From Solidesulfovibrio carbinolicus (GTDB lineage: Bacteria > Desulfobacterota > Desulfovibrionia > Desulfovibrionales > Desulfovibrionaceae), in assembly GCF_004135975.1 (NCBI RefSeq), contig NZ_CP026538.1, positions 806,001 through 870,000 on the forward strand: 64,000 nucleotides of DNA. Reading direction: 5' to 3'. Below the pieces are notes generated by a model that was not told the DNA's origin, ran no database searches, and saw nothing but the letters and a program-made list of their open reading frames with translations. Shown one piece after another: positions 26,350-33,257 of the stretch; position 1 is the first letter of the stretch; each line of letters begins with the position of its first letter. Position numbers and translations under genes: made by a program.

Positions 26350-28218
26350 TTACGTCAGGGCCCGGGGGGCGGCGCGGCCTTCGCGTTCGAGTTCTTCCAT
26401 GAGCGCGGCCAGCTCCTGGGTTTGGCCGGCCAGTTCGGCCACGGCCCGGGAGGCGTCGGCCAGGGTGCGGGAGCTGGCTTCGGCCGTGGCGCTGACGGCT
26501 TCCACCGAGCGGTTGATTTCCTCGCTGGTGGCGGATTGTTGTTCGGCCGCCGTGGCGATGGAGCGCACCTGGTCGGAGGCGTTTTCCACCAGGGTGACGA
26601 TGCTGGAAAGCGCCTCGCCGGCGGCGGCGGCCAGGGAGGTGGCCTTTTCCACGGCTCCGGCGGCGGCGTCCACGTTGCCGACGTTGCGCCGGGCGCCGTC
26701 CTGGATGCCGCGGATGGCGTCGCCGACTTCCTTGGTGGCGGTCATGGTCTTTTCGGCGAGCTTGCGCACCTCGTCGGCCACCACGGCGAAGCCGCGTCCG
26801 GCGTCGCCGGCCCGGGCGGCCTCGATGGCGGCATTGAGCGCCAAGAGGTTGGTCTGATCGGCGATGTCGGAGATGACGTTCATGATGGCCCCGATGTCCT
26901 GAGCCTGCTTGCCCAGCGCCCCCATATCCGCCTTGAGGCTTTGGGCCTGGCGCTCCACGGCGCCGATGGCGGCCACCACTTCTTTCACCACGCCCGAGCC
27001 GTCCACGGCCTTGGAGCGGGCCGTCTCGGCGGTCTGCGAAGCGGATGAGGCGTTTCTGGCGACCTCCAGGACGGTGGCGTTCATTTCTTCCATGGCCGTG
27101 GCGGTTTCGGCCATGCGCCGGGACTGGTCTTCGGCTCCCTGGCTGGATTCGGCGATGCGGGTGGCCAACTCGGCCGAGGTGGAATCGACGACGGACACCA
27201 CGCCGCCCAGGCGGGCGGCAGCGTGGGCCAGGCCTTCGGCCCGGGCTTGTTCGGCCTTGCGGGTGGCGTCCTCGGCCAGCCGGGTGGCGGCCTCGGCGGC
27301 CCGGGCCTTTTCCTCGGCTTCCTTGGTCTTGGTTTCGATGGCGGCCATGTTGTCGCGCAGGGTGGCCACCATGGCGTTGAGGGCGGCCTGCATCCGGGCG
27401 GCCTCGTCGTTGCCGACGGCGTCCAGGCGTACGGACAGGTCGCCGGCGGCGCACTGCATGGCGGCCTGGGTGGTCTGGCGGATGGGGCCGGTGACGGAGG
27501 CCATGATGACGAGGCACAGGCCGATGAGGATGGCCAGCCCCAGACCACAGGCCACGGCGATGGCGGTCAGGGCGTCGCGGATGCGGGCGGCGTTGTCGGC
27601 CTTGATGGCGGCCTTGGTGCGCTCGACGTTGTCGATGTACACGCCCGTGCCGAGCCAGAGGTCGGTGCCGGGGATGGCGACGGCGTAGGCGAGCTTGGGC
27701 TGGTCGCCGGCCCCGGGCTTGGGGAAGACGTATTCCACAAAGCCGCCGGCGGCGGCCGCCTTGGCGAGTTCGCGAACAAAATACACGTTGTTTTTGTCTT
27801 TCAGGTCGCCCAGATCCTTGCCCTGGTTCTGTTTGGCCGGGGGCAGGGCGATGTTGACCGTGCCTTGGTAGACGAAGAAGTAGCCGGATTTGTCGTCCTC
27901 GAAGCGGAAGGCATCGACCATGTTGCGGATGATGTCGTAGCGCTTATCCTTATCCGGCACATCCTTGATGATTGCGGCAATGGCCTGGGCCATGCCGTTG
28001 GACGCAACGGCCAGCTTTTGCCGTTCGCCTTGCAGCATGATGGCCTGGGCGGCGGAGACAGTGTGGTCTTCAAGACGCTGCAGCTCGCGGGAGAACGTGA
28101 GAATCATGCCGGCCGTGAACAGGGCGAACAGCGCCAGCAGCAGGACAAAGCGCCAGGAGAGGGAGAAACGGCGCAAGACGCCAAACGCGCCGCCGGAACC
28201 GGAAGGTTGTACAGCCAC
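26350..28218 (-). CDS. Methyl-accepting chemotaxis protein with single Cache_2 sensor
   Basis: 622 residues from a GTG at 28218, chosen for the GGAGG 7 bases upstream. First membrane helix at about residues 20-42 ([19 protein letters not shown]), then a periplasmic sCache_2 domain ending in the diagnostic [19 protein letters not shown], a second membrane helix ([19 protein letters not shown]), HAMP, a long coiled coil, and the signalling tip around residues 450-490 ([34 protein letters not shown]). It presumably senses a small carboxylate-like ligand, as many sCache_2 receptors do, and controls CheA. No C-terminal CheR-docking pentapeptide is evident. Confidence 0.93.
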
Positions 28219-28274
28219 GAAAGGCCTCCGCACGCGGGATGTCGCAGGTTGGAGAAGGGTAAATCTGGCTGGAA

Positions 28275-28303
28275 CACTACGGGAAAGGCCAGGACATGGC
28301 AAC
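28275..28303 (-). promoter_or_regulatory. Possible sigma70-type promoter for the MCP gene
   Basis: Minus strand TTGCCA (28303-28298), 17-base spacer, TAGTGT (28280-28275), 57 bases upstream of the GTG start and downstream of the last array terminator. Confidence 0.35.
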
Positions 28304-28336
28304 GCGCGGCCGGGAACAAGAGATCCTGGCATTTCT

Positions 28337-28373
28337 AAAAAGGCGGCCCCCGCCGGGGAAGCGGGGGCCTTTC
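28337..28373 (-). terminator. Array terminator C
   Basis: Minus strand stem GGCCCCCGC / GCGGGGGCC around loop UUCCCCG, then CGCCTTTTT. Same design as the two other terminators upstream. Confidence 0.8.
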
Positions 28374-28467
28374 AAGGAGGGAGGAGAGCATGTACGGTCA
28401 CGCCGTTTGCCGGTTGCCTGCCGGGGCGGCGTTGACGTCCGGGCCTGAGGGGTGGCCTGGGCCGTCA
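28337..28467 (-). ncRNA. Candidate small RNA C of a tandem array
   Basis: Third unit on the minus strand, about 130 nt if it starts shortly after the TTATCT box at 28480-28474. It contains a GGCC-ACCCCUCA-GGCC hairpin (28457-28442), a CUCUCCUCCCUCCUUG tract (28388-28373) complementary to Shine-Dalgarno sequences, and an intrinsic terminator with T-run (stem 28369-28345, U-tract 28341-28337). No convincing reading frame. Existence and 5' end are inferred from conservation with units A and B. Confidence 0.5.
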
Positions 28468-28471
28468 AGAC

Positions 28472-28518
28472 GAAGATAAGACCGGAGCATGAAAACGGCA
28501 TGGAGGGGAGATGAATTC
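28472..28518 (-). promoter_or_regulatory. Conserved upstream box of unit C
   Basis: Minus strand GAATTCAT, 7 bases, CCATGCCGTTTTCATG, then CTTATCTTCG. The same string of blocks precedes unit B at 28727-28684. TTATCT is a plausible -10. No textbook -35 is present, so the conserved GAATTCAT/CCATG block may be an activator site. Confidence 0.45.
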
Positions 28519-28533
28519 GGCGACGGGTTGGAC

Positions 28534-28566
28534 AAAAGGAAACCCCCGCCGGGGAGCGGGGGTTTC
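28534..28566 (-). terminator. Array terminator B
   Basis: Minus strand 11-bp stem GAAACCCCCGC / GCGGGGGTTTC around UCCCCG, followed by CTTTTG. Confidence 0.8.
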
Positions 28567-28678
28567 GCTGTCGAGGAGGGGGAGAACAGGCTTCCGGCTG
28601 CGGGAGGGGACCGCCCCGGGGGCCGTGTGTTTGGCGGCAAGTGCAGGGGCCGGAGGGGGTGGCCGTCTGCCGTTGATG
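28534..28678 (-). ncRNA. Candidate small RNA B of a tandem array
   Basis: Second unit on the minus strand, about 145 nt. Two hairpins present C-rich loops: GGCC-ACCCCCUCC-GGCC (28664-28648) and GCGG-UCCCCUC-CCGC (28614-28600). A CUCCCCCUCCUCG tract (28584-28572) precedes the terminator. Structure and sequence parallel units A and C. Confidence 0.5.
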
Positions 28679-28683
28679 AGAGA

Positions 28684-28727
28684 GATAATCCCCGCCCATG
28701 AAACGGCCATGGCTGCTCCATGAATTC
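28684..28727 (-). promoter_or_regulatory. Conserved upstream box of unit B
   Basis: Minus strand GAATTCAT, 7 bases, CCATGGCCGTTTCATG, then GATTATCTC. Matches the box before unit C nearly base for base, with the same distance to the TTATCT element. It follows terminator A by about 30 bases. Confidence 0.45.
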
Positions 28728-28757
28728 CAGCTTAGAATTCGTTTTTCGCCCCGCCCC

Positions 28758-28791
28758 AAAAAGGAAGCCCCCGCCGGGGAGCGGGGGCTTC
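28758..28791 (-). terminator. Array terminator A
   Basis: Minus strand 11-bp stem GAAGCCCCCGC / GCGGGGGCTTC around UCCCCG, followed by CTTTTT. It would also end transcription from the kinase operon upstream. Confidence 0.85.
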
Positions 28792-28914
28792 GTTCAAGGA
28801 GGGGGAGAGCGTCCTTGGGACCGCCTGAGGATGGGAGGGGCCATCCGGTATGGCGAAACAAGGCTGAGGGTTTTGTCTTGGGTGTCTCGTCCGGGCGTTT
28901 CCGCCTCGTTCGAT
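28758..28914 (-). ncRNA. Candidate small RNA A of a tandem array
   Basis: First unit on the minus strand, about 157 nt if it starts after TATACA (28926-28921). It has the hairpin GGAUGG-CCCCUC-CCAUCC (28846-28829), the CUCUCCCCCUCCUUGAACGA tract (from 28809) and a terminator. The upstream box is less similar to those of B and C (TTCACG then TATACA). Confidence 0.5.
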
Positions 28915-28970
28915 GGCTACTGTATAGGAGGGGGACGTGAAGTGGGAATGGCCGCAGGATGAACGATAAT

Positions 28971-30350
28971 TTAACTTTTGGTCCGCCCGGCCGGGAAGGC
29001 CAGGGTGACGCGCAGGCCGGGGCTGTTGTCGCCCAGGCGCAGCTCGGCCTGATGCAGGCCGGCGGCGGCGGCGACCAGGGACAGGCCCAGGCCGCTGCCC
29101 GGGGTGTTGCGGCTCGATTCCAGGCGGGTGAAGCGCTCCAGGACGAATTCGCGGTGTTCGGGGGGGATGCCCGGGCCGGTGTCGGCCACGGTGAGTTCCG
29201 GGCCGGCCGGGCCGGTCGTGAGCGACAGGGTCACCCGGCCGCCGTCCGGGGTATATTTGACGGCGTTGTCCAGGAGGTTGGCCAGGGCCTGGGAGAGCAG
29301 GTGGCGGTTGCCGGGCACGGTTACCTGGGGGGTGAGGTCCACTTCCAGGAGCAGGCCGGCCTCTTCGGCCACGGGTTCGTAGAGTTCGGCGGCGTCGGCG
29401 GCCAGGCTCGTCAGGTCGATGTCGGTGAAATCCTGGCGGCGGGCCCCGGATTCGGCCTGGGCGATGGTCAAAAGCGCGTTGAAGGTCTGCAGCAGTCCGT
29501 CGATCTCGGTGATGGCCCGTTCCAGGGCCTGGCGGCAGGTCTCGGGTTCCAGGGGGCGGGTTAGGGTGATCTCCAGCCCCGAGCGGATGCGGTTTAAGGG
29601 GCCGCGCAGGTCGTGGGCGATGTTGTTGGAGACTTGCTTGACGCCGTCCATGAGGCGGCCGATCTGGTCGAGCATGGCGTTTAAGTTCTCGGCCAGGCGG
29701 TCGAATTCGTCGCCGGCCCCCCGGGTGGGGATGCGGCGGGTCAGGTCGCCGTTCATGATCTCCCGGCTGGCCTTGGTGATGACGTCGATGCGCTTGAGCA
29801 TCCAGCGGCTGGTCAACACGCCGCCGGCTCCGCCGAGAACGACGGTGAGGAGCATCCCCCAGATGAGCGCGTCGACGATGAGCCGCTCGACCTTGACCCG
29901 CTCGGACACGTCGCGGCCGACCACCAGATGGAAGTTGCCGGGCAGCAGGAAGTAGCGCATGCGCACCCGGCGCGGTTCGAAGTTCTCGGTGTCCTCCAGG
30001 GTGGCGTCGAACCAGCCCGAGCCGGTGTCCTTGAACTTGGGCCAGTCGGGCAGGTTGCCGGCCAGGGGATTGAACTTCCAGTCGGTGAGGAGATAGACGC
30101 TCGATCCGGCCTTGTCCTTGGCCACGCGGGACTTGATGACGCGGATAAGCCCGGTCAGCCCGAGCTGGCTGTACTGTTCGGCCAGCCCCTGGATCTCGGC
30201 GTTGATGGTCTCGTCGGTCTGGCGTTCCATGAAGCCGGCCGTGGACGAATAGATGAACCACAACAGCACCAGCACCGACAGGCCGAAGGCGGCCATGTGC
30301 AGGATGGACAGGCGCAGGGTGGAGGAACGCAGGATCTTAGTGGCTATCAC
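28971..30350 (-). CDS. Two-component sensor histidine kinase
   Basis: 459 residues from a GTG at 30350 inside the 3' end of the regulator gene (14-base overlap). Membrane helix at about 15-35 (AFGLSVLVLLWFIY), periplasmic sensor of about 120 residues, second helix near 165-185, HAMP, HisKA with the phospho-acceptor histidine in NNIAHDLRGPLNRIRSGLE near residue 245, and HATPase_c boxes NLLDNAVKYTPDGG (N), VADTGPGIPPEHREFV (G1) and GSGLGLSLV (G2). Envelope-sensing type, partner of the OmpR-family regulator directly upstream. The signal is unknown. Confidence 0.93.
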   Translation of the reverse strand: MIATKILRSSTLRLSILHMAAFGLSVLVLLWFIYSSTAGFMERQTDETINAEIQGLAEQYSQLGLTGLIRVIKSRVAKDKAGSSVYLLTDWKFNPLAGNLPDWPKFKDTGSGWFDATLEDTENFEPRRVRMRYFLLPGNFHLVVGRDVSERVKVERLIVDALIWGMLLTVVLGGAGGVLTSRWMLKRIDVITKASREIMNGDLTRRIPTRGAGDEFDRLAENLNAMLDQIGRLMDGVKQVSNNIAHDLRGPLNRIRSGLEITLTRPLEPETCRQALERAITEIDGLLQTFNALLTIAQAESGARRQDFTDIDLTSLAADAAELYEPVAEEAGLLLEVDLTPQVTVPGNRHLLSQALANLLDNAVKYTPDGGRVTLSLTTGPAGPELTVADTGPGIPPEHREFVLERFTRLESSRNTPGSGLGLSLVAAAAGLHQAELRLGDNSPGLRVTLAFPAGRTKS

Positions 30351-31014
30351 GCAGGCTGTACCCGGCGCCGCGGATGGTGGAGAGAAGCGGCTTGTCGTGG
30401 CCCTTGTCGATTTTCTGGCGCAGCCGGCTCACATGGACGTCGATGACGTTGGTCTGGGGATCGAAGGAATAGTCCCAGACGTTTTCCAGCAGCATGGTGC
30501 GGGTGACCACATGGCCGGCGTGGCGCATGAGGTATTCCAGCAGGGCGAATTCCTTGGGCTTGAGTTCGATGGGCCGGCCGGCCCGGCGCACGGTGCGGCC
30601 GACCAGATCCATTTCCAGATCGGCCACCTTGAGCATGGTGTCCGGGGCATCGGAGCGGCCCCGGCGCAGCAGGGCCTCCAGCCGGGCCAGGAGTTCGGCA
30701 AAGGCGTAGGGCTTGACCAGATAGTCGTCGCCGCCGGCTTTGAGGCCCTTGACCCGGTCGTCCACGTCGCCCAGGGCCGAGAGGATGAGCACCGGGGCGG
30801 CGTTGCCGGCCGAGCGCATGGTCTTGACGATGGTCAGACCGTCGACGCCGGGGAGCATCCGGTCGACCACGCAGGCGTCGTAGGTTTCGGCGGCCACGCG
30901 GTAGAGGGCCTCGCGGCCGTCGGCCACATGGTCCACCACATAGCCTGATTCCTTGAGTCCCTTGACCAGATAGGCGGCGGCGTCCAGGTCGTCTTCCACG
31001 ATGAGTACGCGCAT
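30337..31014 (-). CDS. OmpR/PhoB-family response regulator
   Basis: 225 residues. Receiver with acidic pair in LIVEDDLDAA, phospho-acceptor D51 in CVVDRMLPGVDG, and lysine in YLVKPYAFAEL. C-terminal winged helix: LKPKEFALLEYLMRHAGHVV, then DPQTNVIDVHVSRLRQKID and TIRGAGYSL. Cognate of the overlapping kinase gene. Targets unknown, and no adjacent regulated transporter is obvious. Confidence 0.95.
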   Translation of the reverse strand: MRVLIVEDDLDAAAYLVKGLKESGYVVDHVADGREALYRVAAETYDACVVDRMLPGVDGLTIVKTMRSAGNAAPVLILSALGDVDDRVKGLKAGGDDYLVKPYAFAELLARLEALLRRGRSDAPDTMLKVADLEMDLVGRTVRRAGRPIELKPKEFALLEYLMRHAGHVVTRTMLLENVWDYSFDPQTNVIDVHVSRLRQKIDKGHDKPLLSTIRGAGYSLRDSH

Positions 31015-31022
31015 GCTGTTTT

Positions 31023-31080
31023 CCTTTACCCCGTTGGGGGGTCCGGGGGGATCATCCCCCCGGCCGCCGGAGGCATCTTT
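31023..31080 (+). repeat. Dispersed GC-rich intergenic repeat, copy 4 (inside a kinase 3' end)
   Basis: CCTTTACCCCGTTGGGGGGT, then CCGGGGGGATCATCCCCCCG and GCCGCCGGAGGC. The palindromic core GGGGGGATCATCCCCCC is at about 31045-31061. Read on the minus strand this element encodes the last residues of the hybrid kinase and its stop codon. Confidence 0.7.
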
Positions 31081-33071
31081 TCATTCTTGCCGCGCCTGGC
31101 GGCGACGCGGGCCAAAGCGGCGTCGAGTTCGTGCATGTCGATGGGTTTGGCCACGTAGTCGTCGAAACCGGCTTGGAGCATCCGTTCGCGGTAGCCTTTG
31201 ACGGCATGGGCGGTGAGCGCCACGGCCGGGGTGGCGGCGGCCGGTCCGAAGCGGGCCGGGTCGCGCAGCAGGGCCAGGGTGTCGGGACCGTCGAGTTCAG
31301 GCATTTCCACGTCCAGGAGCACGCAGTCGAAGGGGGTTTGGGCCAGGACGGCCAGGGCCTGGCGGCCGTTGTCCACGGCGGTGACCATGTGCCCCCGGCG
31401 TTCCAGGAGCCGCTTGGCCACGATCTGATTGATGTTGTTGTCCTCGACCAACAGCAGGCGAAGGGGGGTGACCGGTCCGCCTGGCCTGGCCGTGGCCGGG
31501 GGCGAAGGGGCGGCCTGGAGCGGGGCCTCGGGCAGGTCGAAGCCGGCGGTGAAGGAAAAGGTGCTTCCCCGGCCGGGGTCGGAAGCGACCCAGATGCGGC
31601 CGCCCATGAGGGTCACGAGGCTTTTGCTGATGGACAGCCCCAGGCCCGTGCCGCCGGCCCCCCGGTTGAGGCTGGCGTCGAGCTGGGTGAAATACTCGAA
31701 GATGCGGGCCTGCTTGTCGGTCGGGATGCCGATGCCGTCGTCGGAGACGTCGAAACGCAGGGACAGCGCGCCGGGCTTGCGGGGAGCGTCCGGGTCGAGG
31801 CCCACGGCCACGCGCACGAAGCCGTTTTTGGTGAATTTGAGGCCGTTGGACACGAGATTGGCCACGATCTGGGCCAGGCGGCCGGGATCGCCTAGCAGCT
31901 CGCCCGGCACGTCCGGGGCGATGTCCAGGGACAAGCGGTTGCCGCTGCGCGCGGCCGGGGCCTCAAAAAGGCGCAGGCACACGCCAAGGGCCTGGCCCAG
32001 GGAGAACCGGGAGCGGGCAAGCTCCATGCGCCCGGCCTCGATGCGGGAGAAATCGAGGATGTCGTTGATGATTTCCAGCAGATGCACGGCGGACTGGCGG
32101 GCCAGGTCGAGGTAGTCGCGCTGCTCGGGGGTGAGTTCGGTGGCCATGGCCAGTTCGATCATGCCCATGATGCCGTTCATGGGGGTGCGGATCTCATGGC
32201 TCATGGTGGCCAAAAACTGCGACTTGGCGCGGTTGGCGGCCTCGGCGGCCTCCATGGCCCGGGTGAGGCGCTGCCGGGTGCGCATGAGCTCGGTGACGTC
32301 GATCATGGCCTCGATGATGGACGGCGAGCCGGGCAGGCGGCGGGCGGTCTTGTACATGACGCGCTGGCCGGCCAGGGTGTTGACGAGGCATTCGCGCTCG
32401 CGCACCAGGCCGGACTCGTCGGCCAGGACCGGGCAGGTTTCCTTGTTGCACAGCGAATTCTTGCAGGACAGGCCCGTGGCGTCCTTGCCGAACAGCCGTT
32501 CGGCGGCGGGATTTTGGTATTCGAGGCGGCGGTCACCGTCGTCGCCCAGGCGCACCTTGACGATGGGGATGGGGGCGCTGTCCAGGACCATTTCCAGGTC
32601 GCGGCGGGCCAGCACGCTTTCGGTGACGTCCAGGACCAGAGCCTGGATGGCGACGACCCGGCCGGCGGCGTCGCGGCGTAGCTGGATGCGGTCGGTGACG
32701 TGGCGCACACGGCCGTCGGGGGGGCGCTGGCGGTAGTCCAGGGCAAAGGCGTCGCGCCCTGCGTCGGCCGCCTCAAGCAGGGCCGCCTCGACCCGGTCCC
32801 GGTCATCGGGATGGATGAGATCCCAGGGCGAGCGTCGGCCCGAGAGCAACTCCTCGCGGGAAAAGCCGAACCGGTCGATGTTGGAGGACACGTAGGCGAC
32901 CGGCCCGGGCCGGCCGTCCTTGACGGCGTAGCGGATCAGGTAGGCCGGGCTGGCTTCCAGGATGAGCCGGGCCATGTCGGCGTCGGAAAGGTCTTCCCCG
33001 TCCGGGGCCGGGGCCGCGTCGGCCGGGCGTGGCGGTACGGGGGCAAGGTCGTCGTCGGCAGGGTCGATCAT
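31026..33071 (-). CDS. Cytoplasmic hybrid sensor kinase (PAS-PAS-HisKA-HATPase-receiver)
   Basis: 681 residues from the ATG at 33071; the frame stays open upstream but without a start signal. No membrane helix. PAS 1 near residues 30-150 ([33 protein letters not shown]), PAS 2 near 160-270 with a Cys-rich stretch ([16 protein letters not shown]) that could bind metal or sense redox, HisKA ([20 protein letters not shown]), HATPase_c ([29 protein letters not shown]), and a C-terminal receiver ([34 protein letters not shown]). The final ~15 residues ([17 protein letters not shown]) come from the intergenic repeat. Partner unknown. Confidence 0.9.
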
Positions 33072-33257
33072 AAACGGCACCCATGGTGGACGGCGACCGA
33101 AGGGTTGCGGCGTCCGCGTCCAGCGTTGGTATATGCCAAGGCGGGAGCCTTGGAAAGAGGCACTGGGCGCGGTTTCTTTTTGGTCGCTTTGCGGGTATGT
33201 CCCGGTTCGTATATGCTGCACACGTCGCCCGGCACGGACCGGGCCCAAGGAGCCGAT

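Follow-up and report, generated by a model that had tools for sequence, protein, structure and literature searches.

Three tandem candidate small RNAs with C-rich anti-Shine-Dalgarno-like segments next to a two-component system in Solidesulfovibrio

Among described small RNAs (sRNAs), the CcsR RNAs are C-rich and RoxS is present as a single copy in B. subtilis, while MicA and RybB are enterobacterial envelope-stress sRNAs with a link to degP. CpxQ, MicA and RybB are Hfq-dependent and are not known as C-rich anti-Shine-Dalgarno (anti-SD) RNAs.

NfeR1 carries anti-SD motifs on hairpins, acts independently of Hfq and uses these motifs redundantly on mRNAs (excerpt of PMC10746234). CcsR1-4 of Rhodobacter are several sRNAs in a row that take part in stress control; they are described as a single operon that is driven by RpoH, includes a protein gene and is processed by RNase E (excerpt of PMC10253847). 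RoxS, or RsaE, is a C-rich sRNA of Bacilli and staphylococci that is activated by a response regulator, with an NO/O2 signal arriving via ResDE/SrrAB, and that binds the ribosome-binding site; deletion of hfq is described as having little effect on it (excerpt of PMC4409812). CpxQ serves as an sRNA arm of the envelope-stress response (excerpt of PMC4817254), and in D. vulgaris the regulator DVU0679 targets Dv_sRNA2, which lies downstream of the regulator's own gene (excerpt of PMC3333781).

Here we analyzed a locus of Solidesulfovibrio carbinolicus within a stretch of 64,000 nucleotides (contig NZ_CP026538.1, positions 806,001 to 870,000), referred to below as the window, from whose first letter all coordinates are counted. 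In the open-licence literature we found no paper combining Solidesulfovibrio and sRNA, two that mention both magneticus RS-1 and small RNA, and by title none on this system among papers on Desulfovibrio, envelope stress, two-component regulation and DegP.

Layout and conservation of the array

Three minus-strand units, A, B and C (about 158, 143 and 131 nt), lie between a kinase gene and a chemoreceptor gene. In every unit a promoter box and a -10-like hexamer are followed by at least one hairpin whose loop is C-rich, then by a C-rich tract and a U-tract terminator (Table 1). A first-pass annotation of the sequence had correctly located the terminator stems, the C-rich tracts and the four hairpins with C-rich loops. 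The nearest NCBIfam model to the response regulator is cztR/silR/copR, at 255 bits and so below the cut-off of 279. A gene for a PAS-containing hybrid histidine kinase (31029-33101) immediately precedes the regulator gene in the same orientation, and the two may be co-transcribed.

Table 1. Features of the array and of the neighboring genes, in window coordinates
Feature	Position	Strand	Detail
Promoter box A	28936..28963	-	three repeats, TTCATC, GCCATT, TTCACG, spaced 11 bp
-10-like hexamer, unit A	28922..28927	-	CTATAC; TA step at fixed offset
sRNA unit A	28758..28915	-	start estimated from -10; end is the U-tract
Hairpin A1	28829..28846	-	loop CCCCUC
C-rich anti-SD-like tract, unit A	28794..28809	-	CTCTCCCCCTCCTTGA
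Terminator A	28764..28791	-	
Promoter box B	28698..28724	-	TTCATG, GCCATG, TTCATG, spaced 11 bp
-10-like hexamer, unit B	28683..28688	-	TTATCT; TA step at fixed offset
sRNA unit B	28534..28676	-	
Hairpin B1	28648..28664	-	loop ACCCCCUCC
Hairpin B2	28600..28614	-	loop UCCCCUC; single-sequence fold, missing from consensus fold
C-rich anti-SD-like tract, unit B	28571..28587	-	GTTCTCCCCCTCCTCGA
Terminator B	28539..28566	-	
Promoter box C	28489..28515	-	TTCATC, TCCATG, TTCATG, spaced 11 bp
-10-like hexamer, unit C	28474..28479	-	TTATCT; TA step at fixed offset
sRNA unit C	28337..28467	-	
Hairpin C1	28442..28457	-	CCCCUC in loop in 13/13 genomes; covarying stem
C-rich anti-SD-like tract, unit C	28370..28389	-	GCTCTCCTCCCTCCTTGAAA
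Terminator C	28345..28369	-	
MCP (chemoreceptor) gene	26350-28218	-	other edge of the array gap
Sensor histidine kinase gene	28971..30350	-	459 aa; Pfam HAMP, HisKA, HATPase_c
Response regulator gene	30337..31014	-	225 aa; OmpR/PhoB winged-helix class; Pfam Response_reg and Trans_reg_C

A DNA search placed the array right after the same kinase gene in 13 of 14 genus genomes, the fourteenth genome being 69% complete. All 13 have three units with a kinase homologue upstream of the sRNAs, and the closest named loci include S. magneticus UBA7700 and MBC34, S. aerotolerans, S. alcoholivorans and Desulfovibrio sp. DV. The last of these (L022) has about 110 bp extra between units A and B, unlike the other 12 genomes. 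Among 59 genomes of the genus, family and order, 14 had a match: the 13 array genomes and G042, in which the match was 27 bases long and terminator-like only. With its C-rich segments conserved in 13 of the 14 genus genomes, the locus appears to be what the first-pass annotation had proposed, a paralogous array of sRNA-like units.

In the sister genus we found one sRNA-like unit per locus (3/3 loci), with the same C-rich tract and with the box in front. A search of related genomes with a model built from the units had been suggested, and it recovered the array. Our model, R1, comprised tract and terminator and was run with strict filters on 348 genomes of the order, with 15 candidates scored per genome. 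It returned the 39 array units at 45.5-80.3 bits and the three sister copies at 48.5-54.8 bits (a match by construction); the next best was 44.4 bits, in G087, and all others scored 40.8 or less. No box was present at the other R1 matches (0/10 loci inspected). At L209 (G087), L210 (G162) and L212 (G125), near 1501-1560, a C-rich tract precedes a similar terminator in the absence of a box (44.4, 40.8 and 37.5 bits). C-rich 3' ends are thus not wholly confined to the array, and these three are possibly other C-rich 3' ends or sRNAs within the family.

In a tree of the units, A formed one clade (support 1.0), C formed one clade under midpoint rooting and B formed none, so the orthology of unit B rests on position. 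As the simplest account, a single ancestral sRNA would have given rise to three before the genus diversified.

The direct-repeat box and the adjacent two-component system

The promoter box follows the consensus TTCATG-N5-CCATG-N5-TTCATG, with repeats at 11 bp. It had been noted before units B and C, where it stands; it is not limited to them, as all three units have one, and that of unit A is diverged (TTCATC-N5-GCCATT-N5-TTCACG). The TA step of the -10 element lies at a single fixed distance from the box in all 39 units of the 13 genomes, a set in which the unit A box of G010 was positioned by hand. An exact CAT was present at repeats 1, 2 and 3 in 13, 9 and 8 of the 13 genomes for unit A, in 13, 13 and 11 for unit B and in 13, 13 and 13 for unit C. 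CAT-to-CAT spacings in the 13 gap sequences had two peaks, at 11 bp (65 occurrences) and at 22 bp (35 occurrences); every other spacing up to 40 bp occurred at most 8 times.

A strict box pattern matched 27 times in the 14 genus genomes, with 26 matches at the array. A relaxed pattern matched 39 times in the same genomes, 31 at the array and 8 scattered, while its reversed-pattern control gave 0; a spacing control, shortened by one base in its first interval, matched 4 times and never at the array, and its reversed version matched twice. At the tested strictness the box is close to private to the array locus, with weaker sites elsewhere possible. We also trained a matrix on the 39 array boxes, the window's own included; boxes A, B and C were the three best sites in the 64-kb window (31.6-37.9 bits), followed by a place at 7.8. 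No promoter box was found before the response regulator gene, where the best matrix site scored -16.1 bits.

The kinase had matches at E <= 1e-60 in 25 of 149 family genomes. Outside the array loci there were 17 such places, of which we examined 16: a paralogue in G011 and 15 loci from other genera. At the three sister-genus loci (about 65% identity), the top matrix site of about 18,000 positions stood before the sRNA in 3/3, at 28.2-29.3 bits, with the next at 5.7 or less. The gene degP directly followed the kinase gene in 8 of the 16 loci and lay about 1.4 kb further on in a ninth. Here the top site of about 18,000 positions preceded degP in 4 of the 9 loci (6.5-9.4 bits). Four more had a weak rank-3 site (-1.0 to -1.4 bits) at the presumed homologous position; in one of these, G128, the top site was another intergenic position, off the homologous one. 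The matrix failed at the degP locus of G028 (rank 14). We read these ranks at the sister sRNA and degP loci as footprint evidence that, within the family, links the box with this regulator. At one degP-bearing locus, L120 (G139:C28), the kinase orthologue reads across one TGA, by sequencing error or decay. At L128 (G011:C12) a second kinase gene, its product 38% identical, lies by a regulator gene and is followed by what by eye is an apparent transporter gene; the intergenic region there has no box (best -13.4 bits).

Outside the family, a degP homologue was present in at least 20 of 54 loci (L024-L077, mainly Acetobacteraceae), a lower bound obtained with flanks of 3 kb or less, and in 19 it was just upstream of the regulator gene. 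None of the 19 Acetobacteraceae-type degP loci had a matrix site above 1.4 bits (ranks 1 to 67). Because the association with degP extends this widely, the system is probably an envelope-stress one, and the sRNAs would belong to a degP-linked two-component system. Within Solidesulfovibrio the main degP (57-60% identical) is located elsewhere in 14/14 genomes. The 420 bp upstream of its alignment start held no clear box, with weak partial matches at 3/14 main copies and 0/16 other copies. As degP is found elsewhere and lacks a clear box, the sRNAs are no simple replacement of a lost gene. Some 380-420 bp upstream of the Solidesulfovibrio degP alignment start (L129-L142), a conserved ATGAA-N6-TTCAT palindrome was seen in 7 of the 8 regions printed, the eighth being cut there. 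It resembles an ATGAAC-N4-GTTCAT extension at some unit A boxes, and a divergent tRNA-Arg gene is close to it in both loci checked (L140, L131).

OmpR/PhoB-class regulators classically bind head-to-tail direct repeats about 11 bp apart. The box fits the adjacent regulator of this type as a predicted site; this candidate is conserved at the sRNA promoters and adjoins the kinase gene across genera. The PhoB box of D. vulgaris is likewise a direct repeat (excerpt of PMC3333781). We think it unlikely that a different regulator or a sigma factor reads the CAT repeats and that the adjacency of the two-component genes is incidental. Such a reading gains from the 19 Acetobacteraceae-type loci, where the box goes unrecognised near degP, and from the predicted status of regulator binding here, but it has to contend with a box that stands beside a related kinase gene in two sRNA-bearing genera and before degP in several more. 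The repeat geometry classic for the OmpR/PhoB class and the D. vulgaris parallel also argue against it.

RNA structure, pairing and coding potential

The C-rich loops and tracts are among the best-conserved portions of the unit alignments. Unit C keeps the loop CCCCUC and the tract parts CTCCTCCCTCCTT and CUCCUCCCUCCUU unchanged in 13/13 genomes; its tract is made of pyrimidines only, and CTCCTCCCTCCTTGA of this tract is also present in the three sister-genus copies. The loop of hairpin A1 reads CCCCTC in 12/13 genomes and TCCCTC in 1/13. We searched 2258 terminator-like sites, on both strands of 1.6 Mb of stretches plus the window, for a 12-nt all-pyrimidine run with CTCC within 24 nt upstream; 7 sites had both, and 3 of the 7 were the array units, which speaks against a chance arrangement. 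Unit A has a second conserved stretch at 28859-28871, approximately CCCTC(T/A)GCCTTG, which it has in common with the single sRNA of the sister genus (L113-L115).

Conservation of structure in related genomes, which the first-pass annotation had expected, was borne out for helices of units B and C; hairpin A1 showed no covariation in excess of shuffles, and B2 lay outside the consensus. Consensus-helix pairs changed on both sides numbered 6/22 in A, 7/16 in B and 5/14 in C. With structures derived from the same alignments, this two-sided count was reached by 0/500 shuffles for B and 1/500 for C, and further pair types in unit B showed no excess (406/500 shuffles). Pairing in the C1 stem amounted to 84%, compared with 65.5% for shuffles, and 0/20,000 shuffles reached this value. 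That test used 11 different arms drawn from the 13 genomes, with hand-set registers for three and with shared ancestry left in. Single-sequence folding energies were modestly below those of shuffles (z -2.6, -1.6 and -1.7 for A, B and C, the unit A fold omitting its last 9 nt), and because the z-scores are modest this folding is not our main evidence.

The conserved C-rich seed is complementary to GGAGG-type leaders, as in anti-SD sRNAs, and the unit C tract is unpaired in the centroid fold. Target prediction, another of the suggested checks, came out in two parts. Pairing energies favored real over shuffled leaders (-12.9 versus -10.8 kcal/mol, 601 genes), as they did for the 16S tail, and an enrichment of exported proteins failed to replicate. 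In the first set predicted pairing was stronger for the leaders of exported-like proteins (66 of the 601 genes, p 0.02), with all three tracts and with the 16S-tail control alike; the second set was null (51/526, p 0.72) and the pooled result was 117/1127, p 0.13. Pooled leader motifs differed between exported and other genes, with GGAGGG in 11/117 versus 44/1010 (p 0.02) and GGAGG in 39/117 versus 231/1010 (p 0.01), an enrichment that came only from the first set (second-set p 0.70 and 0.53, respectively). Gene calls for these tests came from a script of our own and are incomplete. With the second set null, we set the exported-protein result aside as evidence. Since the test did not replicate, we can only infer that the RNAs act on many mRNAs, as first proposed.

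Neither Hfq nor ProQ was found in the genus (0/14 genomes for each), and the same searches gave Hfq in 5/14 and ProQ in 1/14 control genomes. GC-rich pairing would therefore have to manage without them.

The units could be real sRNAs of this two-component system that titrate a factor binding C-rich RNA, such as Rho or a cold-shock-type protein. Such a role would suit RNAs that have more than one C-rich segment each, come in three copies and, in unit C, carry a pyrimidine-only tract, and it would also accord with the lack of a target class found. We nevertheless regard titration as quite improbable, because the CCCCUC loops are short and nearly invariant, and that of C1 sits on a covarying stem, as pairing seeds would. 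NfeR1, moreover, uses such motifs redundantly on mRNAs (excerpt of PMC10746234).

We give little credence to the idea that the units are 3'-UTR or leader elements, either terminators stacked so as to insulate the kinase operon or leader sequence of the downstream chemoreceptor gene. Unit A does start about 55 bases past the end of the kinase gene, terminator A would end kinase transcripts, and the MCP gene comes next in the window. Each unit, however, has its own conserved box and -10-like element, and it is the loops and tracts that are among the best-conserved parts. An MCP homologue was found near the array in 7/13 loci; of the other 6, four had about 1.3-1.5 kb of available flank past the array and two had about 2.3 kb. 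Because the array persists at these loci, it is independent of the adjoining MCP gene.

That the units encode small proteins is scarcely credible, and we rejected it. In the window, high G+C gives long frames through the array, and unit A has a 16-codon ATG frame in 6/13 genomes. The 16-codon frame, however, lacks a Shine-Dalgarno sequence in front and is absent in 7; no frame of 8 or more codons ends inside any of the 13 unit B copies; no frame is common to the units; the 194-aa window frame that spans the array is interrupted by 2 stops in G005, the closest relative; and helices covary in B and C. A conserved protein across the units, which would have spoken against the first-pass reading, was not found.

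Mode of action and comparison with known systems

The sequences show the units, the boxes, their conservation, the link to the kinase gene and the degP alternative, and no Hfq or ProQ was found in them. We consider the sRNA-like locus genuine and conserved and its regulatory link well supported. We infer its mode of action, that is, regulator binding, transcription, pairing to ribosome-binding sites and the envelope-stress signal. The reading that we favor, with moderate confidence, is that the two-component system next to the array has the three anti-SD sRNAs as its dedicated output and that these block ribosome-binding sites without Hfq or ProQ. Our confidence is slightly lowered by the C-rich 3' ends at a few other loci and by the weak rank-3 degP sites.

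In this mechanism the kinase would sense a disturbance, probably of the cell envelope, and phosphorylate the OmpR/PhoB-type regulator. The regulator would bind the three direct repeats, one helical turn (11 bp) apart, beside each -10 element and turn on every unit from that unit's own promoter. The resulting RNAs of about 130-160 nt would expose their CCCCUC-type loops and the CUCC-rich tract before the terminator, and these segments would pair with G-rich ribosome-binding sites and lower translation, with neither Hfq nor ProQ taking part. In several relatives the same system has degP, encoding a periplasmic protease/chaperone, where the sRNAs stand here.

A further proposal, which we hold tentatively and rate at somewhat less than even, is that in the Solidesulfovibrio lineage a degP-linked envelope-stress system switched its neighboring output from a protease gene to one anti-SD sRNA and then to three, creating an Hfq-free brake on translation under envelope stress. 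If true, this would be an example of a signaling system that has either a protease gene or regulatory RNA as its neighboring output, the one-sRNA and three-sRNA states both being extant today. It would also provide a tractable sRNA family in sulfate reducers without detected Hfq or ProQ, and would point to more than one origin of cuckoo-like anti-SD RNAs.

Comparison with Rfam, in a scan that covered window positions 27000-30000, left the units below the threshold of every family scored. The alpha-r14/cuckoo family (RF02344), the likeness drawn at the outset, gave unit A 24.3 bits (E 0.09) against a gathering score of 58.8, so membership is not borne out; mmgR/suhB RNA (RF00519) gave unit A 24.9 bits against 41, and the rnk_pseudo leader (RF01772) gave unit B 27.9 bits against 55. 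Eleven relative loci had no Rfam match at E <= 0.05. The alpha-r14 arrangement of three hairpins, each with an identical unpaired CCUCCUCCC, was not seen in the units: unit C has a single CUCCUCCC, which sits in a linker without pairing, and the motif of the upstream loops is CCCCUC.

The array resembles alpha-r14/NfeR1 and the cuckoo RNAs in design, as all have CCUCC-type anti-SD motifs exposed on hairpins with variable stems, and NfeR1 acts without Hfq, as the array RNAs would. It differs from them in its bacterial group, in a box fitting an OmpR/PhoB-type regulator and in the linker position of CUCCUCCC. Unlike CcsR1-4, which form one operon, the array units each have their own box, -10-like element and terminator. 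RoxS/RsaE and the array are both C-rich with a two-component link, predicted in the case of the array, and differ in hosts and signal. With CpxQ, MicA and RybB the array would have in common the role of an envelope-stress sRNA arm; the array has no Rfam match. The nearest precedent, likened by description, is Dv_sRNA2 with DVU0679, which comes from a related bacterium and involves one sRNA as against the three of this array.
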